A program made the position numbers and the translations under genes. Shown piece after piece: positions 2,781 to 51,748 of a stretch of 64,000 bases of DNA. The notes under the pieces were generated by a model. The model was not told the DNA's origin, did not search any database, and worked only from the letters and a program-made list of their open reading frames with translations. The stretch covers positions 17,973 to 81,972 of the forward strand of contig KQ965829.1 of assembly GCA_001574975.1 (NCBI GenBank), written 5' to 3'. Every line of letters starts with the position of its first letter. Position 1 is the first letter of the stretch. Source of the DNA: Gonapodya prolifera JEL478 (taxonomy: Eukaryota; Monoblepharomycota; Monoblepharidomycetes; Monoblepharidales; Gonapodyaceae).

Positions 2781-4333
2781 GCGCCCTGCGGAGGTTTTTG
2801 ATGCAATCGCAATGTATTTCGAAACGCGGTTACGCTGGTGTGGTGTGTTTGGACGTATTTGGGGTTCATCCGTCTGTTGGTAACGGTATTCACCGCCACC
2901 AATCGCTTCCACAGTCTTGCATGGAGCAACAGCGCTCGGAGAAAAGTCTGGGCCACTCTAGATTTGGACAGAATCCCACTCCTGAACTGGCAGATCGTCA
3001 ACCGAATCTCAGACGAGAGTTACACCCACTAGTGACGGCTGTATCCTCTTTCAGCCTTTGCGATAACGACGATCCTTAGCGAGGGATCGAGAGACGGGTG
3101 TAAATACGACACGAGCAAGGAGCTTGGGGCTCCCGACAACGGTCAGAAAGGTTTTTTTAAGCAAGGCAACAGATCTCAACCAAGCCAGCTACGTGGGCGA
3201 TGCCTTCCTCAGGATTCTTGGAAGCTTCTGCGGATTGACTGAGTTGGAGATGTTCTGGCCACGAAGCGATACTAGCCTTGCGCCCCGTTCAGGAGCTTAT
3301 CCCGACCCCCTGTCCACAATGGCCGACATGCAGCATCTCAAGCGAGTCACCATAATCATGTACCGTGGCCTCTCCGAGGCAGAAAGCTGGGACGATGATG
3401 GAAACCCTGTGGATCGTGTTGGGTTCAAGAACATTCGGAATTCCCCTCTCTGTCGTGGCGTGGAGCACCTCACCATCAAGGAGAATGAGATCGACGTCGA
3501 CTCCCTGCCCCCGCTGAGCGACGGTCGTCCCCGGACGAAATATGACCGCGAGATTGCTTTCAGTGGGCTGTTAAGTCAGCTTGGGAATCTCCGGAGTCTG
3601 ACGTGTGGTGATGTCCGCTCGCGGTCGCCGTACATGTGGATCAAATGGACAAGTGATACGATACCCTTTTTCCGCGAGTTTCTGGAGAAAATGAATTGGA
3701 GCCGCCTCGAGTATCTCTCGTTTCCTGTGGACTTCACCTCGGGGGTCCGTGCTCGAGAACAGTACATCCAGATCGCCAGTCAGTGCAACAACCTTCGCTC
3801 CCTCAGTCTTTAGAGATACAGTTACGATCGCTCAGACGAAGAGAAATTTTCAGACCCTGCACTTATCACCCTCCTGACCTCACTTCCATCCCTGAAAGAG
3901 CTCTATCTATGCCCGACGGCATCCGGGTGGCATCCAGAGAATGAGTTTCCAGGAGGGCAGATCGACCTCGAACACATCTTTGCTCGCCACCACACGATGC
4001 GGGTTTTCTCATTCGACTGGTGCTCCGTGTTTGACCGTACAACTCCGGCCGCACTCGAACGATTATGCCCCAAACTCACCAGTCTTGAGCTCTCCTCCAT
4101 CGACCGCGAGCACACTCACCGCAACTGACGTGACCAAAGCGGTGGCCCGCTTGCCGCAACTCCGGGAGCTGAAGCTGGCCAAATTGGGCTCGAGGTGGGG
4201 TCCAGTTGAGATGGCACATGCGAAAGTATTGGTGGTACACCCGCGGCTGAAGACGTTTGAATATAGACCCTATGACGTTTCGCTGGTGGATAATGTTGAG
4301 GAGGTGCTGTTTTGGAAGTTTAACATGAAGTGA
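2780..4333 (+). pseudogene. F-box/LRR-type protein, decayed
   Basis: An F-box-like start (PAEVFDAIAMYFETRL near 2790) is followed in another frame by a segment with ARRKVWATLDLDRIP. A long open stretch (3067-3810) then shows leucine-rich-repeat phrasing such as LTELEMFWP, GVEHLTIKE, LGNLRSLTCGD and CNNLRSLSL. An in-frame TAG lies at 3811-3813, yet the same frame goes on with LPSLKELYLCP and PKLTSLELSS. A last shift moves the frame to LPQLRELKLAKLG, ending at 4333. At least one stop and two frame changes with no good splice signals argue for a pseudogene, though assembly error is possible. Functional relatives serve as SCF ubiquitin-ligase substrate receptors. Confidence 0.6.
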
Positions 4334-4439
4334 TATTATTATATATCTGCTCTGCCTGGCGCCGGTTGATCTAGCTTCGAGGGGGAGAAGGGCGCGAAAG
4401 TCCTTTATCATACATTCAAACACTGTTCATACCATGAGG

Positions 4440-5566
4440 AAATGGACGAGGTTTCCACGATTTGGCAGAACGATATCGGCAGAAATTCAGCCCTTCCTTT
4501 GTCTCGGCGACTCACAAACCCTACAAAATCACTCGACTACTCATGGAACACGCGACGAGGGCGGATGAGGTTCTCGCTTTGATGGAGAGTCAGGAGGACG
4601 GCTACCGCAAAACCATTGGGGAATTTGGACGGTTGTGGCAGGGCGTGGACGGTGTGGACGACGGCCTTGGCCGATACGAAGATGCTGCACGTTTTGCGTT
4701 GAGGGCATTCCTGAACGTGTGGGGGGGGTAACGTGTTACAAGATCCCAACCCAATCAAAGAAGCATTGAAGCGCAAGGTGTTGAGCAGGCTCTTTGCGAG
4801 TTCGCTTGGAAAGGATCTCGCCATCCATACGTTTACGATGACGCCAACAGTCGCCTCGCTTGTGAGATGCTCCAAGTTTGCCGAATTTGCAACACGGTCC
4901 CGGGCCTGCCGGCAAATGCTGATAGGGCCAGACATTGGTTTGCTCCCCGCGTTCATTCACGTCGCCCATCTCTTTATTGTGGCAAGCCTTGGATATGTTC
5001 TTCAAGCGACATTCTATGATCCCGGAACCTGGTGGTTCCCTCACGACCAACTTTCAACATATCTGTTCGCTTTAGTCTGTCTTATCTCACCTGAGATAAA
5101 GTGTGAATCGGCTACATATTATGCAGCAACTGTGAACTCGAACGGGAAATTTTGCCTAGCGCTCACGAATATATGTGACGTTGCGCGGATGGGGGATCTC
5201 TTACCTAAAGACATCAGCATGGCTCTCTTATTTTACCATGTGCGCGAACAACTGTTACAGGCAGTTCAATTTGAAACTTCCTCTCGCACAGCATCTCACG
5301 AACCGACTGGAGCTGGATGTGCATGCTCTTGAACTCACTCGTTCATCGTGGAAGAACATAAAGGGAATGGGCACTGAGTCTGTGTGCAGCGATTGGGTGC
5401 ACCAACTTGGCACCGAAAAGAACATGTGCCCGGTGCCAGTTGACGATACTGCGACGCTGTGTGCCAGAAGGCACACTGGAAGCTCCATAAGCCAGTGTGT
5501 CGGGAGGACTTTTGGAATTTGGAGGGTGTCGCGGCGCCTCCCGGGGAAGGAGTTGCGTTGGAATAA
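4440..5566 (+). pseudogene. MYND zinc-finger protein, decayed (copy A)
   Basis: The 3' end carries the second half of a MYND finger, RYCDAVCQKAHWKLHKPVC, then a short tail ending at TAA 5564-5566. The first cysteine pair appears only in another frame (VCSDW...KNMC), and a stop lies between. Two open stretches upstream (4462-4731 and 4733-5332) overlap in different frames and show no other domain. The whole reads as a protein with several frame lesions. MYND fingers mediate protein-protein contacts. Its neighbours are two F-box pseudogenes on the same strand, so this is a small cluster of decayed regulatory-type genes. Confidence 0.55.
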
Positions 5567-5761
5567 ATGAAGGTCGCCGTGTCGTGGAGGTCATGTTACA
5601 AATGCAGTATCGAGATGGATTGAATGAATGGGTAGTGTACCGAAGCCAGACGTTGCTTTCTTTCGAACGTTTTGGAGGTAGTTTTGAATAATTTTTTCAT
5701 GCTAGGGGCATGAAGTACTAAATTTAATGATTTTAGGTACTTTGATCGTTCTCGGGTCAAA

Positions 5762-6904
5762 ATGGCAACCACCGCTCCATCCACTATCAGAACATCAATT
5801 ATTCCGCGTCAGGAGTCTCCGTCCCCTGCCTTGCGATGTCTTTTCCTGCCGGAGATCCTGGCCCAGGTTCTGGGCTTGTCGACGACATCACAACAAATCC
5901 TGCATCATACGCTCTCGTCTGGCGAGTGATTCCGTCACGTTTAATCGCTCCGTACATTTAAGTCAAGTTTTTGGCATTGGTGGCTCCTACGCGCTTCAGC
6001 AAGGCGTGGTACCGTCCTGTAGCGAACGCGAGTTGGCACACAGTGGAGATTGGAAGCAAAACGGACAAAGATGGCGAATCTCCACTCATTCTTCGACGCT
6101 GGCAAGCCCTCAGAGAGGACAGTAAGGACACGGCACGGCCGCGTGTTGTATCGATCGACGGAAACTATCTGACGGATGCGCAGTACGCGCGAGAGGCGTA
6201 CATGTTCCTCGAAAACGTCTCAACGTCTCTTCAATCGCTGAATTATGAAGGTTACAACGTGGATTTGTTCGACTGGATGCCGACTATCTTTGCTTTGGTG
6301 GGGACGTCGAAGAGAACAGCACCCATCAGGAAACGGACAGTCTACTTTCCACGAAACGGACTTGGTGACTTACATGGACACAACTATCCGAAAGACAAAG
6401 CACTTAGCATTACTCACAATTCAAACAATAGGAGGGCGCCTTCTAGTACTCCCCAGACTTTTGAACTTGAGAGAGTGTCTTAGGCTGTTTGATCTCTTCA
6501 AAAGTCACGAATCCTCCCCAACCTTTGTTCTCGGAAGTTTATCAGTCAGTGCTACCTCTTATAAGGAATCAGATCGCCTGATTCTGAGCATCATTAAGAA
6601 CGTCAATCGATACGGCAAACCGGGGCGGAAAGTTCGTTTGCATTATATGGGCTTCATTGCGCAAGAAATCGCTGCTGCGACGCCCAAAATTGATATAGCT
6701 TCTTTACCATGGGAGCAAGGTCTTTTTCCTATACTGCAGTGTGCAAGTGACCAGCAACTTGGAGCATTGTCTCTTTCAACTGATCTCATATTTTTCGACC
6801 AGTTTGCCAAGCAATGCCCAAATGTGGAATATCTTGTAATGCCTTTCCAGTACCTCTTTTACCCGACATTCCCAGCAACTGCTTATGCCGTTTTCATTTT
6901 ATAA
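5762..6904 (+). pseudogene. F-box protein, decayed (second F-box locus)
   Basis: An ATG at 5762 opens a peptide with an F-box core, LFLPEILAQVLGLSTTSQQI. The frame changes near 5875 (to NPASYALVWRVIPSRLI) and again near 5950, continuing as KAWYRPVANASWHTVEIG, typical of the strand following an F-box. A third change near 6380-6420 leads into a leucine-rich C-terminal part ending at 6904 (for example LPRLLNLRECLRLFDLF). There are no convincing introns at the shifts. The layout matches the F-box locus at 2.8-4.3 kb, but the sequences are not close. Likely a pseudogene, as three separate frame breaks are hard to explain otherwise. Confidence 0.58.
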
Positions 6905-7296
6905 AGACACTTCGATCTCGCTTCCTCATCTTTGCCCGCCTCAGCTCTGACGAAAGCTAGTTCCTTGCCACTGCGTCCCGCCTTGCTCATCACGTCACCT
7001 CTACGTGTCTCTACCCCATTTCCTGGGTTAAGATCGTACTTCGCCGTGCTTTCTTTCTTCACTCTGAAATGCGTCCCAGGTTTCCCAGCCGACGTCATGC
7101 CAACCTTCTCATCAACACCATTTTGTCTGCTTGCTAATAGCCCCTCTCTCCCATACATATTCATACTTTTCTTCTTTTTCTTGGCTTGTTTTTTGTGTAC
7201 CTGTTTTTGTGTGCCTCCAAGCTTCAAAACTGCACGCCCCTGCCTCCCAATTGGGGCCTCCTCTTAGGCCTCGTTTAACTTTACCGTCCTCCCATA
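6905..7296. other. Intergenic, pyrimidine-rich
   Basis: T/C-rich DNA with no supported gene. It could be the 5' region of the small gene starting at 7297. Confidence 0.35.
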
Positions 7297-7980
7297 TGGC
7301 GAATCCCCCACCTCATTGCGGCTATGAACTATTCCCCATGAATTATGACGATGACCTCTACCTACAGGTAAGCTCTTCCGTTTTTAGAGGCCCCCACCCT
7401 CTCTCGTTTTCCTCTTGCCTATTATGATCGCTGGACACGATGGAGGAGACGGCCCTGCCACTGTTCAGTTAACAGGTCCCGTATCAAAGGTGTGTACGGG
7501 AATCGTTGCAGCGATAGCTGCGCGATAGTCAGCGAAACTGCTGCATCGCCGACTTCACTGCAATCCCGCACCTGATGCTGAGATTGGGACACAGTTTGAG
7601 GATTATGGACATCAGTAATAATACCATCGAGACACCTGACGAGGCTGCAGCTCGATTCACGCAACATCTTCTTACTGATATGTGTCTTATAAACTTTTCT
7701 GCCGACAATGATCTTATGGAGATGTTATCACTGGAGCTCTGCTCTCACTGTGGACGTAGAGTGTTTCTAAGGACTTCGGGAAGCTGCAACCGCTGTGGTG
7801 GAGTGTGTCAGGATGACGCGGAGAAAGGCACTGTTGAAGGCGCATTGAGAAGAACTAACAGATGGGGTTTACGGATAAATCTCATAATTAAGAGCAATCA
7901 ATGTGTGGTGTGTAGTCCATTTGATTTCAATTGGATTAATTCCACTCTTGTTTTTTGTGTCTGGCCGGCTGAATCGAACT
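7297..7980 (+). CDS. Possible zinc-binding (MYND-like) hypothetical protein
   Basis: A short first exon (ATG at 7297, MANPPPHCGYELF onward) ends at a GTAAGC donor near 7369. Downstream, an open stretch (7575-7980) contains LCSHCGRR followed by CNRCGGVCQDD, giving two CxxC pairs spaced like the first half of a MYND finger. The canonical second half (YCxxxC, HxxxC) is absent. The link between the two parts is not resolved; a stop in one plausible path lies near 7533. It may be a fourth decayed MYND relative or a small independent gene. Confidence 0.3.
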
Positions 7981-8042
7981 AGTAGAGCAGCAAAAATTTA
8001 CCCAACACGAACACCCCACCACCGGCCGTCAACTTTCCACCG

Positions 8043-10035
8043 ATGGCCACTACGCCACCCGCCTGGGACTACGCCGCACAAGCGAATCCGATGGTTGTCT
8101 CCGACGCCCCCTTACCACCAGATGGCGCGGGATTCGTCGTCAACTTTCGACTCAGGGAGAAACCAGTGCTGGTCGTCAACGGGGGATTTGAGGTGCGACG
8201 CATCAGCAATACGAGTGTTTCGAGTACCTCGCCCGTCCTTACGCGCCCGATCGCACTCCACACAGGCCCTCTCCCGCATTCTCTCCTGTCTTGACGCACT
8301 AGCACGGGTGTCTTTCATCTCTCCCTCTTCCCGCGTGCACCCCAAAGTCCGCAAACTCCTCGACCTGCATCCCATGCGGCACCTTATCGAGTACCACGAC
8401 AGGGAAATCGATCTGGACTCGGATATGGACGCCAAAGAGTGGGCATTGGTTTTGTCGTGCTACGAGCCGGAGGAGGAGGACGAGGAGAGGTCGGCGACGA
8501 GGAACTTGTATAGGGAGTGCAAGAAGCGGAGGATTGTGGTGAATTGTGCGGATGTGCCGGAGTGGTGAGTGAAGAGTGGCATTGATTCTCCCAAACCCGG
8601 TGACCAGAAACGTCGCCCAACTTACCCCAGCTGCGACTTCCACATCCCAACCACCCTCCGGGACGGCCCCGTCCAAATCTCCGTCTCCACCTCCGGGTTC
8701 GCACCGGGTCTGAGCCGTCGAATCAAAAAATCTCTCTTGGCCTCGTTGGACCCAAATACGGGCCAGGCCGTGACCAACTGCGGAAAGCTCCGTGAAAAGC
8801 TCAAGACCAAGGGGGTAGAGCGCACAAGGAGGATCAAGTTTATGACGGACGCGCAGAAGAAGTGGAGTATGCGGCAGTGGGCCGGGATGAAGGGGGAGGA
8901 GGTGGAGGATGTCGCGGGCAAGGTGGCGAGGGGCGAGGATGTCACACCGCCAGCAGTGGGGTCAGAAGTGAGCGAGGGGTCGGAAGCGGCGATTGGGGAG
9001 GATACGAAGGCGCTGGAACCTGCAGCAGCGTCTTCAAAGCCTCAACCAGCGCCAGCGCAACCTCAGGAATCAACCGAAAGCATAGCCTCACTACCACCAA
9101 AACCACTGGAAACCGTTACAATTTCCCAACCTTCCTCCACCTTGCCCTCGATCACCCCAACCCACCTCGCCTCCCTCCTCCCACCACCATCATTCTCCTT
9201 CTTCCACCCCACTCCTTCCACCCCCTCCATACCCGGCACGATCCTCCTTCTCGGCGGCGGCCCAGGCCACCCCTCCCACCTCACGCTCTCGTGCCTGTCC
9301 TCTCTCCTCCTCGCCGACCACGTCGTGTCAGACCGCCTGGTCGGCCCGAGCCTCCTCGACTGGGTCCCGGGCCTTAGAGCAAAGACGACGTTCGTGGCAG
9401 AGAAGAGCGGGTCGGGTGGGGCGTCGGACGCGGCCCAGATGGGCGCCAACGAGACCTGTCTTGCCAAGCTAGTTTCGATCCAACGCGCGGATGGGGACGA
9501 CCGACTGCCCCTCGTAGCCCGTCTCAAAAACGGCGACCCCTTCTTATTCGCCCGGGGCATGGAAGAAGTCGCCTGGTTTACGTCCCGGGGGGTCCGCGTC
9601 GGTGTCGCCCCCGGTGTTCCCTCGGCCACGTCCGCGGCCCTCGCTGCCGGAATCGCCGTGACGCACCGCGGAGTCGCTGACTGCGTGTCCGTCGTCACCG
9701 CGCGGGGCGAGGGCGGGTACATCCCGGAGCTCCCCGAATGGACAAATGGGCGCACGGCGGTCGTTTTGATGGGGCTTGGAAGACTTGCGGAGATCGTGAA
9801 GGCGTTTGGAGCCAAAGGGTGGCCCGAAAGTTGTCCTGTGGCGGTTGTACAGAAGGCGTGGTGGGAGGACGGGAACAGTGGGAGTCTGCAGAAAGTGGTT
9901 CGGGCGACCATGATTACGGTTGCGGAGGCTGTGAAGGAGGCTGGGTTGGAGAGTCCGGTGGCGATTGTTGTGGGAGATGCAGTGGCTGTTGGTGGTGGGG
10001 AGTGGAAGGGGATTGGGGAGCTTACATTGACGTAA
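8043..10035 (+). CDS. MET1: Siroheme synthase: Met8-like plus uroporphyrinogen-III C-methyltransferase fusion
   Basis: Three exons, 8043-8192, 8266-8564 and 8631-10035, join with consistent phase into 617 aa. Introns are 73 and 66 nt with GT/AG ends. The N-terminal ~190 residues resemble Met8/CysG-N (precorrin-2 dehydrogenase and ferrochelatase): EKPVLVV, an NAD-binding turn, VNCADVPECCDFHIP and the helical SGFAPGLSRRIKKSL. An acidic, proline-rich linker follows. The C-terminal half is a SUMT domain: LLGGGPGHPSHLTLSC, RLKNGDPFLFARGMEE, VAPGVPSATSAALAAGI and VVLMGLGRL. Together these reactions turn uroporphyrinogen III into siroheme, the cofactor of sulfite and nitrite reductases. The usual GGG of the Met8 NAD site reads NGG here. 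The gene is intact. Confidence 0.93.
8193..8265 (+). other. Intron 1 of siroheme synthase gene
   Basis: GTGCGA donor and CACAG acceptor, phase 0. Splicing joins GGFE to ALSRILSC in the Met8 domain. Confidence 0.8.
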
Positions 10036-16991: not shown

Positions 16992-18377
16992 TCACGGTGC
17001 CACCGCCAGAGACGTGGAAGGGAGCAATACCCTCCTATGAGTCCATGCCCACCATAATGCCACTTTGGCTCCCGTCCCATGTTCGAGGGCCCATGGTGTC
17101 CATGCAGTGCCGGGTGCAGTTGCGGGTGGGTAGATCGGGTTACGGAAATTGCGGCGAGTAGGTGTAGCGTCTGGTTCTGGGAGTGTGGTCTTGAAGTGTT
17201 CATATTGCCGAACGAGCTGTTCAACTTGTCCCCGAGTCATCTCCTTGTCCCTAACAGCACTTCTCGCGCTCCTCCTCGACAACTTTATGCAGCCATCTCG
17301 GACCCAACCACCCCCGTCTGAGATAATCCCGACGTGTTCTAGAAGCATTTGCACAACTGCTTCCCCAGTGGGGTACCACCCCGCCATCCACACCAGCTTC
17401 CTCAGACCCACCAAATCCACGTCCGCACCACTTTCCAACAACAGTTTGACCACGTCAACACGAACACCGCGGCTCACGGCTTTGAGCAGCGGCGCCCCCG
17501 CATCGTAGTTGACGTCCGCCCCGGTATCAAGGAGAAGTGAAATAGCATCGGGGAGGCCGAGACGTGATGCGAGTACAAGCGCAGTGGACGTTGCGGTAGA
17601 GCCGGGGGAATCTGGGTGGGAGAGGAGGAATTCGAGGGTCGGGATGTCGGCTGCGGTGACGGCCTCGCAAAGGGGAAGACCAGAGTTTGAATTGGGGTCC
17701 GCACCATGGGAAAGAAGGATTGCCACAATGTCCACGACTCGAAAACGCACGGCAGTCGCAAGGGCAGAGTCAACCATGCTCTGCATGTGAGTCCGTGAAT
17801 GGATAAGAACGAGCTGGACAACCTCCGCATTTCCTGATTTCACGGCTCTGGTCAATACGTCGTCGCCGCCGCGTGTGCCGCCAACTGCAACCTTACGCTG
17901 CAATGACGCGCCCAAATCGAGCAATGTTCTTGCAAGATCCAAATGCCCACCGGAAACCGCGGCGCACAGCGACCCCTCACTCGCACCATCGATGTGTGCA
18001 CCGTGGCAGACGAACAGAAGCGTTGCTGGTTCGTGATTGTGTCTGCAGGAGACTGTGAGGCAGAGCGATAGAAGATCCTGCGGGCAGCCGGGCTCGCGGT
18101 CTCCGATATTGTCTGCGAGTTGCAGCAGACGTTTCAACACCTCGATGTTCCCGAAATACGACTCCTCGTACATCAGCCTCTCGACTGTTTGAAACCTGCG
18201 CATCCCTCTCTCCACGATACCACCTGGCTCAGAAAATACCCCGTAGAGGCGCCGATTCAACGCGGTGGCGGGAAGTGCGAGTCGATGTGAGCATAGACAG
18301 CCGATGAGCGCGATTAGTTCGGAGGGGAGGCCTAGGAGAGGGAATGGTGTGCTTTCAGGATGGGTCGAGTGAAGCAT
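16992..18377 (-). CDS. Ankyrin-repeat protein with F-box-like N-terminus
   Basis: Single-exon, intact, 461 aa from the ATG at 18377 (an upstream in-frame ATG at 18518 would add 47 unlikely residues). The N-terminus PFPLLGLPSELIALIGCL is F-box-like, followed by RRLYGVFSEPGGIVER. About seven ankyrin repeats follow between residues ~85 and ~390; the clearest are GHLDLARTLLDLGAS, VVDIVAILLSHGADPNSNSG, GLPDAISLLLDTGADVNYDAG and VRVDVVKLLLESGADVDLVG. Ankyrin stacks bind partner proteins, and with an F-box such proteins recruit substrates to ubiquitin ligases. A broken tandem paralogue lies immediately upstream on the same strand. Function otherwise unknown. Confidence 0.85.
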   Translation of the reverse strand: MLHSTHPESTPFPLLGLPSELIALIGCLCSHRLALPATALNRRLYGVFSEPGGIVERGMRRFQTVERLMYEESYFGNIEVLKRLLQLADNIGDREPGCPQDLLSLCLTVSCRHNHEPATLLFVCHGAHIDGASEGSLCAAVSGGHLDLARTLLDLGASLQRKVAVGGTRGGDDVLTRAVKSGNAEVVQLVLIHSRTHMQSMVDSALATAVRFRVVDIVAILLSHGADPNSNSGLPLCEAVTAADIPTLEFLLSHPDSPGSTATSTALVLASRLGLPDAISLLLDTGADVNYDAGAPLLKAVSRGVRVDVVKLLLESGADVDLVGLRKLVWMAGWYPTGEAVVQMLLEHVGIISDGGGWVRDGCIKLSRRSARSAVRDKEMTRGQVEQLVRQYEHFKTTLPEPDATPTRRNFRNPIYPPATAPGTAWTPWALEHGTGAKVALWWAWTHRRVLLPSTSLAVAP

Positions 18378-18870
18378 CTCGCGAAGGGACGAATGGAGAG
18401 AGTGTCTTGTAAAAGGAAAGCTTGGATGGGTGCTTAGGCGGGTGTAGGAAGGCCGCAGCACGATTGACCAGTTCACCGTACAATTCAAATTTTGACCACA
18501 TACTTTACGGTTCCACAATCACGTGTTGCTTTTATACACCTCCTTTTCCCCCTTCCCGCAATCCTCGGCCCTTGCTCGATCCGATTGCCGCCCATAATTA
18601 TCAGTACCGTCTCGCCGCCCTCGTACTCCCCAACTCCGGGCTGAATTCAGCATTGCGGTTTTATTCTTTGAGCGAGGAGCGTCATTTCATTCCAGACGGT
18701 GGTATGCTCTCTACTGCTATTGGAAGTCGAAACCGCCTTACAATAAAAGTCACGACATGTCCAAAGGAACAAACGCGATTAGGACCTTCCGTCTGGTCCT
18801 ATTCCACCACCGCACCAATTTGCTTTCCGTCGCGTGTCGGCGGAACTGTGGAGTGACTGCCTTGCCAAGT
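18378..18870. other. Intergenic between the tandem ankyrin loci
   Basis: No gene recognised. Should hold the promoter of the intact ankyrin gene. Confidence 0.4.
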
Positions 18871-38785: not shown

Positions 38786-39543
38786 ATGGCTGCTGCTGCT
38801 GGTTCGCTTACAGTCGCTGAGGCCGCGTCCGTCTACGCGGCACTTATCCTCCACGATGCCGAGAAGGAGATCACGGTGAGCAGAGCATAAGCACAAGCAG
38901 ATGGCTGGGTCGGATGCAATGGGAGGATTGCGGGGTCTGGTGGTGGTTGATGGGTCACGGAAAGTTTACGAAGCTCGATTCAATGCTGGCACACGCCGGG
39001 ACCGACACGAAGAAAGAGATGTTAGAGAACAGGAAATGCGGACCCACGGCAGACGTGGCATTGGGGCTTCTGGGGTTCCTTTCCATTTCCTATCGGCTGG
39101 TCCTAACCACGCCACCCCCTTCCAGGCCGAGCACATCACCTCGCTCCTCGAGGCCGCCAGCATCGAGGTCGACTCGTTCTACCCCCGTGTCTTCGCCAAG
39201 GCTCTTGCCGGAAAGGACCTCAGCTTCCTGACTAAGATCGGTGAGCACTCCAGTTCTCTTCACGACCGGTTGCTCTACAAATGGAATCTGACACCAACCC
39301 ATCGTCTCCCAGGCGCTGCCGGCCCCGCCGCTGCCCCCGCTGCCGCTGCCGCCGCTCCTGCTGCTGCTGCTGCCCCTGCCGCCGCGGCCGCTGCCCCCGC
39401 TGCCGCCAAGGTTGAGGAGAAGAAGGAGGAAGAGGAGGACGACGACATGGGCTTCGGTGAGTCCCGTGGTTTTTCATCCCCCGTCCAAGAACGTGAAAAA
39501 TTAACCACACGCACATGCGCATTCTTCAGGTCTCTTCGACTAA
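38786..39543 (+). CDS. RPP1: 60S acidic ribosomal protein P1
   Basis: Four exons, 38786-38875, 39126-39240, 39313-39456 and 39530-39543, join in phase to 120 aa. The N-terminal dimerisation domain reads SLTVAEAASVYAALILHDAE and AEHITSLLEAASIEVDSFYP. An alanine-rich hinge (GAAGPAAAPAAAAAA onward) follows, then the acidic tail KVEEKKEEEEDDDMGFGLFD, in which the last six residues are the invariant factor-binding end. P1/P2 form the ribosomal stalk that recruits translation GTPases. The last exon encodes only the end of the tail (LFD and stop), a small terminal exon. Intact. Confidence 0.96.
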
Positions 39544-39880
39544 ACGCCCTGATATCGTCCGTCCACCAGTCCACGCGTCCAAATCCCTCGTTGTTGTTCG
39601 CTCGTCTAGGCCTCGGACTGGATCACTGTACTGCAATGTCGTTTTCGCAACGGCGCATAGCATACGCTGCTTTCTGTACGAGATCCGGACCTCGTGAATA
39701 CATTCTACGCACACAAGAAATGCCTGGCCCCCTCCCGACATCCCGCTGTCAAAGTGTTTGCTCTGGGAAACCCATGCGAGATGAGCTTGGGCATTTAGAT
39801 GCCACCTATTCCTGATATGACATGTATGCCTCCGTTCACTACCACCCACATAATTACGTCTGTCCTCACAAAACTGGTCA
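39544..39880. other. 3' flank of RPP1, nothing else recognised
   Basis: No supported gene. Confidence 0.4.
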
Positions 39881-41699: not shown

Positions 41700-43729
41700 A
41701 TATGGCGTGACTGTGACAACTTCAAACTATATTTCTTAACTACTCGGATGTCATCACGCGCCCCCTACTAGAAGACGTTTTCCAAGAGTCAGAATGAACC
41801 GCGACTAACAGAAATAAATTTTTTCTCCGGAAAGTGAATCGTTATGAAACACCAATGAAGCGGGAGCCAATGCACTTTTCGCTTTCGAGGAGGGAATGAT
41901 GTCATCCATTTGAGTTTTGATATCCTACTCCTATAAAAGCAGCGTTACATGAACCTTGTCATAATTGTGTTGCAATACCCAACGGCGAGAACAGTCACGT
42001 GTAGCTATACAAAATCGTGAAAGAACCTTTTTGGACTCGTCTCAGCTTTTAATCATCACGAGTTTTAGATGGACCCATTCATTTCACTACATCTCTGGAC
42101 TTGCGTATCATACGTTGTGCCATGCGACGAGGGCCGGCGTTTCGCACATTCGTGTGAAGAGACGCTATTTTTTCGTGACAACGTGTCACGCAAGGCCAAC
42201 GTTCACTGTTCTCCGAACGCAAGAGTGTCAACGATATATACTCACCAATTTTTGAGGAAGCCTGTCACAGCATGCTAGCCTGCTAAGCTGAAGTGAAAAG
42301 CACGTGACATATTTCGCAGTCAAAGCTGGAACCAAAGAGTCAAGAGACTACCATTTCTGCCCCTGGCACCTTTTACTTTCTGCTGTACACTCAAACACCC
42401 CGACGAATAGGAAAATGACGCTTAAAGTACAAAGTACAGCGTTTGAAACATTTGGCCGTCCAGTACCTTTGCAAAGGATAAACTGAAGTCCTTTGCTGCT
42501 GGACAGCAGTTGTAGCTCTTTTATAATCATGCCTTAAACATGTATGTATTGCAGAGATCGATATCGTTGGCAAAGTTGACGTCATCTGACAACTCGCACA
42601 TCTCATCCAGTTAACTGTTCGTTCGTGCATCCGTGGTTGTGCTTGGAGGGGGAGGGGGGGGCTGGTCGTCCGGTCGGGAGTAATGGCTGAACCGACTCTC
42701 ACGTTCCCTGCCTCACAACTTCAGCGGCAGCCGGCAGGGACACACCTCACACTTTCGCTTTACTTCAAACCGGTGTTGCGCGCGGCGTGCGGCGTGCGCA
42801 GGTGTTATTGTTCAGTGCCCCGCCCTTCTATACCGCGCTGAAATGTATGGCACGTGTGTCCTCACTCGTTTATGAGACGAGCTGAACAGCTGGTCTGGCG
42901 AATTCATCAGGTGATGTGCGACATTGGGCGGCGGGCGCTCAGGGTGCGCTGTTAGGCGAAGAGGGCGAGCGTGGTCACACAAAAATAGCAATCAGGGGGG
43001 ACAACTGTGGGGGCGAACCGAACACATTCTCAGTGGCAGCCGTCTTATTGAAACTATGTATGCGCATCGCACCACGGTGAACATACTGCACCTTGGAATT
43101 TCTTTTGAAAAATTAGATGTCTCTTACTTTGCTATCGAAAGTTCACGCATCGCCCCTGGTTGCAAGTTGCATGCGACCCATGCACTCTCGAGCGAGAGTG
43201 TATTTATATAGGTAAACGAGGCAATGACAGTTCCGTCTCGGAGGAGGACGGATCGCACCGGAGATGCAGCGGTGTGCAGCCACCCACCGAGTGTTTCTGA
43301 GTGGCGCCGAATTCGTAGGACGTCTGTGCCTCGGCGTTTTCGAACCGGGAACAGGGAACAGGGAAGGAACGCCCTTGATTTTAGGACGCTTGCTCCTTTT
43401 CTTTTTCCTGGTCTCGCCAGGGCAACACCGCGATCCTGTGGAGCGTGGCCACTGCAGTGCCCCTGTATCGCTCGATCACCTTTCGACCCCCAGCTCGTCA
43501 CGTCGGTGCATCCGTTGCGTCTCCAAATCCGGACATTTGCCTTCTTTACCCATGCGCGTCGCATCGTCACGCCATGTGGCGCACCGGTCCCACCATGACA
43601 AATCAGGACACTGGGGTCGGCTGAGGGTCCGGAATCTGCCGGAGGCTTGGAAGCACAAAAAGACCGAATCCGGGAAATCGACACTCGCACTCTCCGCCAC
43701 TCCGCNTCGCACCCGCACCACTTACTGCC
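41700..43729. other. Gene-poor region
   Basis: About 2 kb with only short unsupported frames, AT-rich until 42.6 kb then GC-rich. A TATATA-like word lies near 43202. It contains a single N at 43706. I see no gene, RNA gene or element ends. Confidence 0.4.
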
Positions 43730-46280
43730 ATGCCCATCGCGTCGCTCCTCGCAGCCGCTCTCGTGGCGTCCGCGTCAACGGTTGTCCTCGCGCAGGCACC
43801 GACGGCCAACCTGCAGTCGTGTGTCCCCGCCGGAGCATACAACGCCGCGTACGACTACTTCCCGAACAAGGCGCAGAGTGAGTTCGAGTCTCGGATTGTG
43901 CGGTTTGTGCAGGGGGTGGAAGAGGGGGAGTGTGGAGAGAGTGTCGGTGGTCGCCCTGCCAAGGAAAGGGTAACCGTGTCTCGGAAGGCGGACAGAATTC
44001 GCACTCGTCGCACTAGACAACGAAATCGTCTCTTCCTTTCCACTCACTCCGTCGGATTCCTCGGTCTTGTCCATTTTTTCTTTCGCATCCCCTCGGAAGG
44101 AAAGGGTAAACCACACTCGTCGGAAGGAAGGACAAGGCAGACATGTCTTCCGTAGTCAACTCCCAAGTCGTCGCTTTTATTCGGTTGACGTGCTCGGATT
44201 TCGGCGCTTTTGTCTTTTTACTCGTTCCCTCGGAACCTCGCTCTGACTTACCACACCCCCTTCCCATCCCATCCCCTCCCCTTCCCTTCCCTCCCTTTCT
44301 CTCCCCTCACTTCCACAGACATTTCCTCATCCGGCTACACAATCGCCTACTACCCCAACTACAAAATCGTCACAAATATCATCGCGAACACCACCACCGT
44401 GCTGTACCAATGCGGGACGCCCGCTCCGGCCAATGGGAGTATTCCGGCCGGGGCCAAGGTTGTGGCCGTGCCGATCGTGAATGCGACCTTGAGTGATGTG
44501 ACGAGTTTGACGTTTATTGAGGTGGGTCACGCCGGGGGGGAGGCGCGGAAGAAGGAACGAACGAGGTGAAGCCGAGTGAAGTGGAGTCGAGCCCCGCGAC
44601 CAGCGGAGGCCTGTACAGGCCGGAAGAGGGAGCCCGAGGCCTAAGCGCCGCTACGCGCTGACCGAGGAGTCCACCGGAGGCGAATGATCCTTGCGCGTAG
44701 CGCGAAAGCCGCGCGGAGCGGAATACTCTTCCTGCTCAATGGAAATCCGTTTGATTTCTTTTTCTTTCATTTTTCGCCTTCGTACAATTCTCATCTCTTT
44801 TCTTCCCCCTTCCTCCTTCTCCCTTCCCCATCCCCAGCTCCTCGGTAAACGCACCACTCTCTCCTACATCGACGGCGTGGACTTTATCGTCAGTCCCTGC
44901 ATCCAGCAACTCAACGCGACTGGTGCCGTGGATGAACTCGAGAGCGCGAACCAGACGCTGCAGGACGCGCAGTTTTTGAGTACGAGCGTGGTGTTTGGGA
45001 GTCCGTTTGGAGCGGCGCCGGAGCCGAATTTCGTTAGGTGGGTGTTGGGGTGCAGGGGAAGCTTCAGATGGAAGAAGGAGAAGATGCCGAGTGATGTTGG
45101 AGTCGAGCCCTGGGCGCTGCGAGCACAGCGAGGACTCCGAGGCCTAAGCGCCGGAAGGCGCTGGCGAGGATTTTTTCGCGGAGGGACGTCGAGTGAAGCC
45201 GCCCGCATACTTTGAATATCTCCGGATGTTACCCCTTGTGATGCAATCGTACTCACCGTGTTTTCACCGCCTTCAGCTTCTCCGCCACATCCGCCCCCTC
45301 ACCCCTACTCCGCTCCTCCTGGATTAACTTCATCTCGCTCTTCTACAACGCCGAATCCGACGCCGCCACCGTCCTCAACTCCATCAACGCCTCGTACACC
45401 TGCGTTTCCGGTGCAGCAAAGAACGCGTCCACGGCCGTTGCGACCCCCCCGACGTTGGCGTGGGCGCAGTACAATGCGCCGAGTCAGTACAACAACAACA
45501 CGGCGTCGTGGCAGGTGAGCATGAGCACCGGCTTGAGTTTTTGTGTGTGGAACGGAGGTTGACGATTGGTTTGTGGCAGTTCAACAACGCGTCGTACAAG
45601 CTCGCATACACACGTGACGCCGGGCTTACCCCGCTCAACTCGGCCGCCAAGTTCACCTCGGCTGCTGACTTCCAGGTACGTGCCCTCCCTTTCGCTCTCC
45701 CATTCCCCTTCACCTCTAACCCCGCCTTCTCCCACCCACCCACCCACCCCGCCAGGCCGCCCTCGCCTCCGTCGACTACCTCATCGACGAAACCTTCCTC
45801 GGAACCACCACCTGGTCCACCTTCCTCTCCAAATACAACCTGACCGCCGACTCGTCGCTCAAATTCATCAAGAACAAGCAAGTCTACCGCACAGACCTCC
45901 TCCAGAACTCAGGGGAGTGGACGTCGTGGTTCGAGGCCGCCGTCCCGCTCTCTCATGTGGTTTTGAGCGATATTGTCAACATCGCCTATGGACCGACTGT
46001 GTTCCCGAGCAGTGCATACAGCAATGTGTTCCTCCGCAACATTGCCCAAAACGTTACCGCGTTCTCCACCGCCGCCCAGTGCACCAACGCTTCGGCACCC
46101 CTCCCGATCGGGGGACCTGCAAAGTGCCCCGCCGTGTTGGCAAGCGCGACCCCCGCCGCTGCGGGAACTAACGGCACCACCTCGAGCCCGGCCGCTAAGC
46201 CCGGGTTCGCTACTAAGGCCGTGGTGGGACCTGCGTCGATTGCCGCCGCCGTCGTTGCAGCGCTTTTCGTCCTGGCTTAA
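43730..46280 (+). CDS. GPI-anchored TroA-like (class III periplasmic-binding-fold) surface protein
   Basis: Six exons, 43730-43877, 44319-44521, 44838-45037, 45277-45514, 45580-45675 and 45756-46280, join in phase to 469 aa. A signal peptide (MPIASLLAAALVASASTVVL) is followed by YTIAYYPNYKIVTNI, NATLSDVTSLTFIELLGKR and IDGVDFIVSPCIQQL, the pattern of a class III solute-binding protein N-lobe. Next come SPLLRSSWINFISLFYNAES and VATPPTLAWAQYNAP (linker helix and C-lobe start), and AALASVDYLIDETFLGTTTW. Many N-x-S/T sites are present. The end is Ser/Thr/Ala-rich, then a hydrophobic tail (VGPASIAAAVVAALFVLA) like a GPI signal. Bacterial relatives bind metals or siderophores; ligand unknown here. 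Intact. Confidence 0.78.
44560..44720. repeat. GC-rich repeat in intron 2, copy 1
   Basis: Contains GAGTCGAGCCC, GAGGCCTAAGCGCC and GCGCTGACCGAGGA, plus a small palindrome GCGCGTAGCGCG near 44694. A related unit occurs in the next intron. Confidence 0.55.
45090..45210. repeat. GC-rich repeat in intron 3, copy 2
   Basis: Shares GAGTCGAGCCC, GAGGCCTAAGCGCC and GCGCTGGCGAGGA with 44560-44720 in the same order. Confidence 0.55.
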
Positions 46281-46980
46281 GTGGACTAATTTGGGAGAGA
46301 AGGAAGGAAAGAGGGAAGGACTATGGACATGGTATCAAACACGGGAACGAGTCTAATGGTTTAATTGTTGGTGATCACGTAACTCAACGGACGAACACGT
46401 GAAACTTGGAAGTAGTGGACAAGGAGAAAAGGACTAATAGGCCTAAATACATAATCTTACAACTGAATTTTACTCTCATTCGTGCCATTCGTGCTCTGCA
46501 ACGAAAGTTACTCCATGTGACTTTGTGAAAACTAAATGACTTGGTCGGTGATGCGTTGTTCGGCCGCCTTTGTCAACCAAAGTCTTTGCCGAAGAGCAAA
46601 GTGGAGCATTGCGCTACGTTATATGAGCAAAGGTCCTCCCTGAAGCGCAAAGTTCAGACATGCACTACATATTAAAGACCAAACACAAGTTGCGTACAAA
46701 TGCGAGGATATGTTCTATATACAGTAAGGGGACACCCCGACCAGTCGTCTAGTCTGGGCCCCGATACAGCCCAACCGATAGTCCACGAAGCAAAATGCCA
46801 TAGCCAAATTCTGGGGTGGAGAGGCGCAAATAATGCCCTCACGCGGGACGCATCATCGTCGAGACAAAGGTCTTGCATACGCCGGGGCTACATCCGCCCC
46901 TGTGATGTGAAAAACAAAATAAAGGACGTCAATGAAATCGGACCGAAGAGCAAAGAGCAACAGCTAGACGCAGGGTGGAG
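46281..46980. other. Intergenic between convergent genes
   Basis: AT-richer, no supported gene; holds both 3' ends. Confidence 0.4.
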
Positions 46981-46981
46981 C

Positions 46982-48939
46982 TTACAATTCGTTGTCCCAG
47001 TAGCTGGGAAGACTGTAGTACGCGTTGTCGGTGATGTACCACCAGCCGAGGCGGTAGGTGGAGAGGATCTTGGAAAGGGGACGGGGGGGTTGTGTTGGGT
47101 GGGTTGGGTTGATTAGCACGGAGGAGAACCAGAGTGCGGTTTCGACTGATCAACTTACAGTGGCGGCATTTTTGGCGTTATCCTCGGTGTTGGTTCCCGC
47201 TATTTGTCCGGTGGAGTGGACGAAGCCGCACGTTTGGGAGCCTATCCGGTTGATTGCGGTTACGTTATCGTCTGCACTCGGCGGCAGCAGAGGTTGGCAC
47301 TTCGCGTCGCGCTACTCACGGTTTGCAACGGTGGGAGCCAGTCCGTTCGTACCCAGGAACCGGTCGTAGTAGGATCCATTTACGACGAGACTGGAATTGT
47401 GGCGAGATTGGTTATGGACGGATTGGCAGTAAACACAAAGGACATCAAAACACACCCTTCGTATGCACTTTGAGGATGGGAAGGGAAGGGAGGGCGTGGC
47501 CGTGTTGAGGTCCAGCTTCTTCGGAACAACACGAATGACGGACTCACTTTTCGACGACTCCGACAAGATCGAAACCGTTGGTGTTCGTGTCGTTGCGGAA
47601 CCAGGTCTCGATTCCTTCACCCAGGAAACCGGGGTTGACTGCACACATGGCGCGGTACTCGGGTTAGGAATACGGCAACGACGAAACATCGTGAAGTTGC
47701 GTTCTGGGACTCACCGGCCAAGAAATCACCCATGGTTGACGGCATCAACGGCCGGATTTTGCCAAAGAAGCGGTCGTAGTCTTCAGGGAACCCTCCGAAC
47801 GCCCATGCCTAGTGAAACATGCATCGCTGAGTCCGCATTCCTTTGTTCGGAGTCCCCCGCCATCCTCGCTCTCACCTGATCGATGTAAATCCCGTCAAGA
47901 CGACCGTACGTCGTGCAGTTGTATGCCCCCCACTGTTGCATCATGAGCTGGATGGACGGGTACACGGTGGGACCGTTGTCGAACGCGCATTGCCACGTTC
48001 CCGTTCCATTCAGGATTACGTATTCAAAGCCCCAGCAGGCGGGGGTGTACCTTGGTAAGTGGGAAGGGGAAGGGTGAGGCGAAGGGTTGCGTGGTGGCCA
48101 GGTCCCGGTGAAACTCACCCGAGGACTTTCACGCGGTCTTTGTAAGGTGCCAGGCCGTTCAGAAGCTATGTGTCCCGTGTGAGTGCAGATTTGAGTGGAG
48201 AATGATGCGCGATAACTCACCATGGCCGCTCCTGGGTGTCTGGTTGTCAGTGCTCCCGCACACGCTGTTCCCAATGGACCGGGTCCGTTCTCGAAGTTGA
48301 GGCTGTACGGCACGAAGGTGAGCCATTCAGTACGTTTGTTCGGGCACAAAGCAACACGGCGGGTTCTTACACGATCAGAAACTTGGTCCGTGTTGTGTTG
48401 GTGTTGACCACCATCGCCAAAAGGGAGTCCAGAAACTCCCCATTCTGCTCCGACGCATCAAGCGCGTACAATAGATTGTTGCTAAACACCGGTACAATGA
48501 ACCCGTTCTGGGGTAGGGTCTTCCAAGCATTCGCAGGGTTGGATGGGGGAGCCGTCACTGGCGCGGGGCTGACCCGGTTTGCCGTTTCGGGGTTATTCTG
48601 GTCGGAGGTGGAAGCTACAGAGCTAGCGACGACGTTTGCAGACGTCGGCGCCGGAAAGCGGGTTTAGAACGACGAGCTCAGACCGGGGCCGCGCTCCTTT
48701 GTGCCGAGTACGTACCTTTTTCCGAGCAGGAAGATGGACGGGATGCCGATAATGGCGGCGGCAAAAAACACGAACATGATGATGAGGAAAACGAGCGAGC
48801 GTCCGCGCGGCCGTTGCGAGAGTTGGGAGAGCAGACTGGTTTTGGCTTTTGTGTCGAAGGGGTCGCCGCCCGACATCTCGCGCTTCAGGACCATTGGCAC
48901 GTTGCCGCCCGAGTAAGATTTCTTGTGATGGGTCGCCAT
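46982..48939 (-). CDS. Spherulin-4-like type II membrane protein
   Basis: Start 48939; exon 1 (48939-48716) encodes a basic cytosolic stretch and one membrane segment SLVFLIIMFVFFAAAIIGIP. Exon 2 begins at 48622 with a Ser/Thr/Pro stalk, then GFIVPVFSNNLLYALDAS. About six further exons include FENGPGPLGTACAGAL, YTPACWGFEYVILNGTG, QWGAYNCTTYGRLDGIYIDQ, FGGFPEDYDRFFGKIRPL, MGDFLAVNPGFLGEG, TNTNGFDLVGVVEK and RLGWWYITDNAYYSLPSYWD, ending at 46982. The DGIYIDQ strand, the VNPG turn and the TDN..LPSYW end match the spherulation-specific family 4 (distant to TIM-barrel glycosidases). Location would be plasma membrane or secretory lumen. Catalysis is not shown. The catalytic-looking Asp of DGIYID is kept. 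Confidence 0.65.
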
Positions 48940-49380
48940 TGCGCGGGGATGGGCGACGTTTTTGGGTGCCCTTACCAAACGGAGGGCGCCACACAGGTTG
49001 TCAAACTTTAAATACATTACACTTCAACTAGAAATGTGGTTGGACATATAAATATGCGATAAATGCTTCGGATATACATCATTTTTTTCTTCTTTTGGGT
49101 GCAGCGACATGTCCTGGTTTGATCATTGAAGCAACAATCGAATTTTCGACCGACAGCCTTTGTCTCGATGATGTCGGGGGGATTGACAACCCAAGCCCAG
49201 GAAACGCAAACTCAGCACGCGACGAAAAAATCAAATATTACTTAACAGCACAGAAAAACATCCAAAAGGGTATCAAAATAGTACGTCTCGCACCATAACT
49301 ACCAACACCACCAACACCGGCGGCACCTTGCACTCTCTCTGTTGAATGCACTGTCCAGCCCCACGAACGTACGCACGCCC
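48940..49380. other. Intergenic, AT-rich
   Basis: Lies between the 5' end of the spherulin-4-like gene and the 3' end of the Csm1-like gene. No gene recognised. Confidence 0.4.
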
Positions 49381-51748
49381 TCACCACCCCTTCTGCACAC
49401 CTAGCCTAAACCACCTTCCTCCATTCGATTTTGCAAACTGCACGTTCTTGCCGAAGTACCCCGGCACGAGCCCATTAGCCACGTCGGCGCGCGTCTCGTC
49501 CGTCGGGGCGTAGATATACTGCGCGGGTTCGCCCGACGCGGCGGAAGGCTGTTGGAGTTGCATGACGTAGTGGAGGGCTGGAGGGTAGTGTTAAGTTGAG
49601 GTGGGTCAAAATCAGAACCAGCGAGAGAGCACCCCGACACCCCCGATAATACTCACTCCCACTCTTGACCTTCTGCTCACACTCAAACTCCAAAGTGTCG
49701 TTCCCGTTTCCATCCCCTTCACCATCCTCATCCTCCTCGGCTTGAAACACCCCCGTGACCTTCACACCTGTCAAGTCCTCGTACAGTTCCCGCATGCGTT
49801 CCAGCTCGGTGACCTGTCCTTGTAATTCCGGAATTGAATCCACTACAGAAAAGAACAGATTCGCGCACCGTAAGCCGATCGAACTTGCGACCAAAAACCG
49901 GGACGGCGGACACACCTTGACTCCTCAACGCCTCCACCTCCGCACGCGCATTAGCCAGCTCTTGTTCGTACTTGAGCAGCTCCTTCTTGCTCTCCTTGGC
50001 CGCTTTCGCGCTCCCGCTCCCACTTGACTCGGAATCACTCCCGCCCTTTGCGACACGACTCTCCAAATGCGCAATCTGGGCCCGTAATGCCGCGAGTTCT
50101 TGTTCGTGCACTAAAAGCCCAGAACATTACACGTATCAGTATCGTCAAGCCAACCGCCACAAGCACTACCCTGCGGAAACGCACCATTTTGCAGCTCCTC
50201 ACCCGCACGCTTCACAAACTCGTAATGCTCCTGAGCGTGCGGGCCCACGGTGTTCCGGAGTTCATCGTACTTCTTCTGAAGTGCGGTGAGGTCCGCTCGG
50301 ACCTTTGGAGTTGGGATGGAAGTCGAGGGGGGGAGGTTGCAGGGATTTGGGGGGTTCGGGGTTGTCAGCCACCACCAAGGACCCAACAATAACGCCCCAC
50401 CCTCCCTCCAAACCACTCACAGCCTTCAGCGCCTCATTCTCGCTCACAGTCCCACAATTTTCCACGAACTTCACAGTGTTCCCCTCGAGCGTCTTGAGCA
50501 TCTGCACGAACCCTTCGTCGCTGGTTCGCGTGATAGTGGCGGGTGGGAGGGGGAGGGTGAGCGCCGTCGTTGCGGTTGTGTGGGGCGAGGGTTTGGCGAG
50601 TGTGACGGCATTTGGGGCCGAGGAAGACGGAGCCGCCGTGGCCGATGCAAGTTGTCCATGTCTTGGCACTGTGATGGTTGCAACCCTGGCGACGGCCGCG
50701 ACAGGTCCCGCCTCCACCTCTTCCTCGTCCTCGACGTTGGCGCCCCGACCTCCCTTCTTCCCACCCGGCGTCGTCGGTTTCGCGGTCGCCTTTGCACCTT
50801 CCACGGTGCTCTTTCCTTTCCCCTTCGCACCCTGTGCGGATCCGCTGGATGCGACATCGTCTTCAAAGGCGGACGAGTCGGCGGGACTCCGGGTGGGAGC
50901 GGGTTTGGGTTTGATTGAGGGTTTCGGAATCGATGCGGCGGTGGTGGAGGCGGGGGGTTTGATTCTGGGTTTCTGCTTGTTGTCCACCAACGTAACGCGT
51001 CGCGCAGCGGGAGCGGGAGCCGGCTCCGGTTTGGGCGGGGTGACGTCCTCGATCTCCACATCGCTGTGCTCGCTCTCCTTCTGCGGCCCCTTCTTCGCCG
51101 GCTTCTTCGGTGCAGGGACTTCCTCTTCAACATCACTCTCGTCACTCTCCTTCGCCTGCTTCTTCTTCACCACGGCAGTCTTACGCTTCTTCACCGCGTC
51201 TTTCCCCTCCTGTCCTTGCTTCGACTTCACACTCGGCTTGGGCTTCGCTTCGGGCGTGTCCTCATCCGCATGTGCAACGGTCAGAGCAGCCGCAAGCCCA
51301 GCTGCCCGCCGCCGACCCTGGACTGGACTGACGCGGTACATGGTGTCGAGTTCCTTGAGCGCCTGTCTCTTATGTTTTGGGGCGGGTGTGTGCGCGGGTG
51401 TTGTGGGGGATGCTGGGCACGTTGAGGGTGAAGGATGGAGTGCGTGAGAGAGGCCCGAAGCGAGAGAGCGAGGGGGGAAGAAAGATTGACTCACGTTTCT
51501 TGACGCTCGCTTTGGGCTTCTTTTGAGGCGGGGCTTTCATCAGAAATACATCAGCGCCGTTCTCCATTATCAACACAACTTCCAAGCAACGACTCACCAT
51601 CATCCTCGCTCTCGCTGTCCGACTCCTGTACCTTCTTCTTCCCCCTAGCATGATTCGGCGTCTTGTTCTCGTGCCCCGACGGCGCGGGTCGTTTGCGTTT
51701 CGTATCTTTGGCTTTGGCAGCGGGAGCCTGCCGCCGGTGCCGTGTCAT
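49381..51748 (-). CDS. Csm1/Pcs1-like chromosome segregation protein
   Basis: About seven exons from the ATG at 51748 (MTRHRRQAPAAKAKDTKRK). The N-terminal half is long, disordered, and rich in Lys, Pro, Glu and Ser with nuclear-signal-like KKRKTAVVKKK. Coiled coil follows in small exons: KVRADLTALQKKYDELRNTV, HEQELAALRAQIAHLESRVA and EQELANARAEVEALRSQG. Then comes a globular end: LQGQVTELERMRELYEDLTG, VKVTGVFQAEEDEDG, TLEFECEQKV and ARADVANGLVPGYFGKNVQF-type sequence finishing at 49381. Coiled coil plus this LTG...FE..LPxYF pattern matches fungal Csm1/Pcs1, the monopolin subunit at kinetochores and rDNA. The N-terminal disordered extension is much longer than in yeast. Confidence 0.6.

Follow-up and report, generated by a model that had tools for sequence, protein, structure and literature searches.

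We propose, with fair though not high confidence, that a six-exon gene of Gonapodya prolifera JEL478 encodes a CBA1-type capture protein for vitamin B12 (or a related corrinoid), which would be secreted, held by a GPI anchor and undocked from any BtuCD-type importer, passing B12 on by endocytosis. Under this proposal, the signal peptide would direct the protein into the secretory pathway with N-glycosylation, the GPI anchor would then hold it at the plasma membrane or wall, and its two lobes, by analogy with the family, would close on B12 as in BtuF. The tethered receptor could thereby concentrate B12 at the surface without a BtuCD-type importer, and endocytosis followed by the usual eukaryotic intracellular route would deliver B12 to METH and methylmalonyl-CoA mutase. 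For B12 uptake in fungi this gene family gives a concrete candidate. The ligand is inferred from independent regulatory evidence, namely bacterial riboswitches, and the prediction that no BtuCD importer takes part in uptake is also of consequence for the mechanism of CBA1 in algae.

The gene lies in a 64,000-nucleotide stretch of DNA, the whole of which was analysed and is called the window here. Its six exons, predicted from splice sites, are separated by five GT..AG introns of 441, 316, 239, 65 and 80 nt and encode 469 amino acids (Table 1). The preliminary description had seen here an intron-rich fungal gene combining a signal peptide, a solute-binding fold, many glycosylation sites and a GPI-like C-terminus, and this observation is confirmed. 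Residues 1-21 have a mean hydropathy of 2.0 and are followed by VLA-QA, which by inspection resembles a signal peptide. The last 20 residues (mean hydropathy 2.4) lack a basic tail, and the omega site, spacer and terminal hydrophobic stretch fit a GPI signal by eye. N-glycosylation sequons number 14, as against 6.2 in shuffled sequences, only 3 of 5000 of which reach at least 14. Four cysteines (31, 81, 138 and 226) are common to all seven copies of the gene described below.

Table 1. Coordinates of the gene in the window and of corrinoid-related genes beside its prokaryotic relatives
Feature	Position	Strand	Remarks
Gene	43730-46280	+	six exons; ORF ends, stop included, at 46280
Exon 1	43730-43877	+	start codon; signal-peptide-like residues 1-21 = 43730-43792
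Exon 2	44319-44521	+	N-lobe; CBA1 K78 = K65, P118 = P101; Cys81
Exon 3	44838-45037	+	N-lobe; CBA1 L136 = L119; Cys138; residue 159 (44961-44963) = Q, position of first docking glutamate in prokaryotic relatives
Exon 4	45277-45514	+	linking helix; FYNAE 45341-45355 = CBA1 F214-E218; PTLAW = CBA1 P251-W255; Cys226
Exon 5	45580-45675	+	DAG = CBA1 G289; residue 292 = A, position of second docking glutamate in prokaryotic relatives
Exon 6	45756-46280	+	remaining C-lobe, linker, stop; WFE 45927-45935 = CBA1 W394-F395-E396; D367 = D408
GPI-signal-like hydrophobic C-terminus	46218-46277	+	residues 450-469, protein ends there; by inspection
CbiZ	L067 1641-2855		beside prokaryotic relative; no riboswitch found at locus
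CbiA/CobB-like	L045 4146-5534		beside prokaryotic relative
CbiA/CobB-like	L066 4129-5610		beside prokaryotic relative; no riboswitch found at locus

Rfam and ARAGORN searches of the window gave no matches. An element of about 105-120 bp occurs both in intron 2 (window 44550-44668) and in intron 3 (45066-45170), at 70% identity. Downstream, on the minus strand at about 46984-48940, is an apparent multi-exon gene whose product would be anchored in the membrane at its N-terminus, the secreted part containing cysteines; it may resemble a spherulin-4-type protein, and one ORF piece of it (47786-48457) had no Pfam match. Elsewhere in the window, one ORF carries a 60S acidic ribosomal protein domain (38880-39812) and another carries ankyrin repeats (16995-18518).

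The genome (47.6 Mb in 207 contigs) holds at least seven copies of the gene on seven contigs: the window copy on C99, a close twin on C76 and divergent ones on C93, C29, C20, C66 and C100. The twin has the same six exons and frames with introns of different sizes (435, 303, 245, 66 and 86 nt), and 458 of the 469 residues are identical (dS 0.42, dN 0.017, dN/dS 0.04). Since exons and frames are retained at this low dN/dS, the frame is real and under purifying selection. That the twin might be an allele was judged unlikely at a dS of 0.42. Both genes lie in a duplicated block that includes the 3' neighbour and has 81-84% DNA identity (window 43289-49647, corresponding to 3557-9899 of the compared stretch L022 of C76); its length of more than 6 kb is a lower bound, as the match runs to the edge of the C76 stretch. 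Given the dS in the gene, the block is best read as either a duplication of old date or part of a second subgenome that has diverged strongly. In the five divergent copies (L023, L024, L025, L026 and L027) the models, which are approximate, most of all around the WFE exon, continue beyond the hydrophobic segment with a basic, polar tail. Unlike the GPI-like window copy, these proteins appear to be single-pass (type I-like) membrane proteins with cytosolic tails.

Conventional searches did not reveal the family to which the protein belongs. On its own it matched nothing in Pfam or among PDB sequences, and five fungal copies gave negative or weak results against Pfam. A profile of these five found nothing better in the PDB than an unrelated hydroxylase (E 0.25), and hhalign gave it a probability of 0.1% against the single sequences of E. 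coli BtuF and FhuD. When viral contigs were scanned with the fungal profile, none of 55 pattern matches was a relative; in prokaryotic genomes, 274 of 475 were. The prokaryotic relatives are 21-32% identical in the best segment. The best 80 of the 274 were taken on; they belong to Chloroflexota, Latescibacterota, cyanobacteria, actinobacteria, methanogens and other groups, with many close kin among them (Caldilineaceae). Five with truncated or ill-chosen ORFs (L061, L062, L081, L084 and L092) were left out of the alignment and tree, for which 75 were used, and are still counted in the riboswitch, neighbour and prokaryotic rigid-block motif figures. A profile built from the 75 recovers the window protein over residues ~7-391 at 124 bits (E 2e-39 in a search of seven sequences) and the six other fungal copies at 104-129 bits.

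It is through these relatives that the class III binding-protein fold claimed in the preliminary description is borne out. All ten prokaryotic relatives tested score above the cut-off for Peripla_BP_2 (PF01497), and none of the ten exceeds the cut-off of any NCBIfam model, that of BtuF included. The window protein itself has no PF01497 match, and the only such match in the genome is to another gene, below the cut-off (L029 on contig C38, minus strand, about 3344-4697; 25.4 bits with a cut-off of 27.5). That gene represents another type of class III-like protein, its ORFs having no obvious signal peptide. The structure prediction and fold search that had been suggested as a check were run on a relative, L042, with 39 others as the alignment; of the window protein, exon 6 was modelled by itself. 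The L042 model (pLDDT 92) has two lobes with a 23-residue helix (230-252) between them, and Foldseek matched it to 189 PDB chains at E <= 0.001, the best 50 of which are solute-binding proteins or iron, heme, molybdate or B12 transport proteins. Exon 6 reached a pLDDT of 69 overall, and no ten-residue block within the first 80 residues fell below 77. Transferred by alignment from L042, the predicted fold of the window protein, with two Rossmann-like lobes and a long helix connecting them, is thus supported. The fold does not give the ligand, because the top matches to L042 are YiuA (iron-siderophore) and RhuT (heme), with Vibrio cholerae BtuF in rank 23 (E 2.5e-12).

The genomic setting of the prokaryotic relatives does bear on the ligand. 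Cobalamin-class riboswitches (Rfam) are present at 45 of the 80 loci (15, 12, 9 and 9 in successive batches of 20). All 45 lie upstream of the gene on the same strand, 37 of them at most 600 bases from the match; at the remaining 35 loci none was found within the flanking stretch examined, and the only other Rfam matches at the 80 loci are two tRNAs. As a control we took the PF01497 matches in 16 of the relatives' genomes, which comprise 30 loci, 11 being family members (10 of these are test loci again) and 19 non-family. A riboswitch accompanies five of the 11 family loci, here with shorter flanks, and two of the 19 non-family loci (L126 and L139). Within about 1.5 kb, the comparison is between 40 of 80 relatives and two of 19 non-family loci (Fisher p 0.0017, which is only approximate because many of the loci are near relatives). 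A BtuC-like gene occurs at 67 of the 80 loci and a BtuD/FhuC-like gene at 53. Ten hand-picked neighbouring ORFs included two CbiA/CobB-like proteins, one CbiZ, two TonB-dependent receptors and one FecCD permease, the rest being one Rnf-Nqr protein, one sensor kinase and two without a match. On the strength of this riboswitch and BtuC-like setting, together with the CBA1 signature residues considered next, vitamin B12, or else a related corrinoid, is the probable ligand, and the metal or siderophore suggested in the preliminary description is not borne out.

In the study by Sayer et al. 2023 (PMC10828217), both Chlamydomonas and Phaeodactylum are shown to require CBA1 in order to take up B12; the legend of its Fig. 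8 gives 16 conserved CBA1 residues, of which W255, W394, F395 and E396 are placed around B12. By hand assignment, 13 of these 16 occur in the window protein (12 by automatic placement): K65, P101, L119, F206, N208, E210, P242, W246, G278, W353, F354, E355 and D367, the equivalence of K65 and G278 being our own. The other three are changed (E206 to S, F215 to Y and V253 to L). At W255, W394 and F395 the window protein is in the CBA1 state, and the prokaryotic relatives mostly differ. In a rigid-block test, whose linker tolerances were fixed after seeing the candidate, the window protein scored 11 of 14; BtuF and FhuD each reached 6, and the best score among 2000 shuffles was 9. The other fungal copies scored 9-12 and the 80 prokaryotic ORFs 5-13. 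The window protein therefore most likely belongs with CBA1, a membership resting on residues listed in a figure legend.

B12-dependent enzymes have recently been demonstrated in early-branching fungi (PMC8085122). The genome considered here encodes METH, methylmalonyl-CoA mutase (MCM) and cobalamin adenosyltransferase (MMAB), along with METE and LMBR1-family proteins, while MMADHC is marginal (36.1 bits with neighbours, cut-off 27). From this complement, the fungus is likely to be a facultative user of B12.

Unlike its prokaryotic relatives, the fungal protein probably does not dock on an importer of the BtuCD type. Class III importers rely on salt bridges between permease arginines and two glutamates of the binding protein (PMC3741162). 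That paper numbers the BtuF pair 74 and 202, and in E. coli btuF as translated here the pair is at 72 and 202. In the prokaryotic family profile, the two residues align with the invariant glutamates of the family (L042 E170 and E310). Both are present in 75 of 75 prokaryotic relatives and in none of the seven fungal copies, which have Q or a gap at the first position and A, V or P at the second. Furthermore, a search of the whole genome for FecCD permeases gave no match at E <= 0.001, whereas 13 of 14 control genomes gave one; the absence of an adjacent importer remarked upon earlier is confirmed. It is the loss of both glutamates and the lack of a FecCD match that argue against BtuCD-type docking. 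Out of 25 near-invariant prokaryotic positions (the start Met aside), seven are kept in all fungal copies and five in none, the latter being the docking glutamates and L042 W274, W322 and H388 (the N-lobe alignment is gapped there). With two tryptophans and a histidine also gone in all seven copies, the changes reach beyond the docking surface, which tells against a loss specific to docking.

A quick tree (82 rows) separates the seven fungal copies, its sole eukaryotic rows, from all 75 prokaryotic ones by a branch with an SH-aLRT of 100, long branches being flagged. A phylogeny against bacterial and algal homologues had been recommended earlier; its prokaryotic part yielded this split. More tentatively, at somewhat below even chances, we suggest that eukaryotic CBA1 goes back to a prokaryotic binding protein of a B12 ABC importer, from a lineage frequently found under cobalamin riboswitches, which eukaryotes acquired, which lost its docking glutamates and which is now a tethered B12 receptor; in this fungus it would have expanded to at least seven copies, a GPI-like pair and five transmembrane forms with a basic cytosolic tail.

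Among the alternatives, the one that survives best, though still unlikely, is a CBA1 descendant with a changed role, wherein the window/C76 pair, without E206 and the docking face, may bind another tetrapyrrole or serve the wall and the five transmembrane copies take up B12. Compared with the other fungal copies the pair has a long branch in the tree, and it is alone among the seven in having S for E206, a residue kept in 75 of 75 prokaryotic relatives and in all five other fungal copies, and N at residue 201 for a conserved K near that site, substitutions that also weigh against the main proposal. Sayer et al. suggest a new role for the CBA1-like proteins of land plants, which are without B12 enzymes (PMC10828217). 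Nevertheless, the window protein keeps all four of W255, W394, F395 and E396, and its dN/dS relative to the twin is low. About equally unlikely is the idea that the protein scavenges heme, iron-siderophore or metal at the surface; such a protein would share the fold, and the best PDB fold matches of L042 speak for it; in addition, NCBIfam matches at E <= 0.1, all far below cut-off, go to IsdE in eight of ten relatives and to the BtuF model in four of ten. We rate it lower than a B12 receptor because of the cobalamin riboswitches upstream of the relatives, which are their regulatory RNAs, and the corrinoid genes beside some of them, the CBA1 residues of the window protein and the B12-dependent enzymes of the genome also counting against it.

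A binding subunit of a eukaryotic ABC transporter, an idea raised for CBA1 by Sayer et al. (PMC10828217), is distinctly improbable: structural kinship with BtuF and the BtuC/BtuD-like genes adjoining the prokaryotic relatives are in keeping with it, but the docking glutamates are lost in all seven copies and the missing FecCD match counts against a partner of the FecCD type. Contamination of the assembly or a pseudogene has a negligible probability, for while the relatives found outside this genome are prokaryotic, the gene has five spliceosomal introns, copies on seven contigs and a dN/dS of 0.04 in a genome that is evidently fungal (72 Fungal_trans matches, as against none in 14 prokaryotic control genomes).

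CBA1 homologues in fungi, some in species with METH, have already been published, and the same source calls for tests of CBA1 in fungi and describes its mechanistic role as not yet clear (PMC10828217). In our literature search no paper turned up that brings together CBA1, vitamin B12 and chytrids, and among the matches listed no title links CBA1 to bacterial riboswitches. The homologues were thus known before; new, within the literature searched, is the evidence from the absent docking glutamates and from the relatives associated with riboswitches. The combination of features is not unprecedented either, as algal CBA1 is a signal-peptide protein of the same fold (PMC10828217).

The proposed B12 receptor can be compared with three known systems. 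The first is CBA1 of Chlamydomonas (Cre02.g081050) and Phaeodactylum, with which it has in common the 13 of 16 residues, the block spacings, a signal-peptide-like start, a predicted BtuF-like fold, a hydrophobic C-terminus and a host with both METH and METE. It differs from them in the substitutions of E206, F215 and V253, in the at least seven copies in this genome and in a GPI-like end with nothing after it, whereas the Chlamydomonas protein has a predicted C-terminal transmembrane helix. With the prokaryotic PF01497 relatives, set among BtuC/BtuD-like neighbours and cobalamin riboswitches, it is homologous over approximately residues 7-391, including common K, P, FxNxE, G, E and D; unlike them, the fungal copies have introns, two further conserved cysteines (C138 and C226), sequons and putative membrane tethers, and lack the docking glutamates. 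Finally, E. coli BtuF has the same class III fold and is reached by the prokaryotic family profile at 33.8 bits, but the fungal profile does not match its sequence directly, and it possesses the docking glutamates that all fungal copies have lost.
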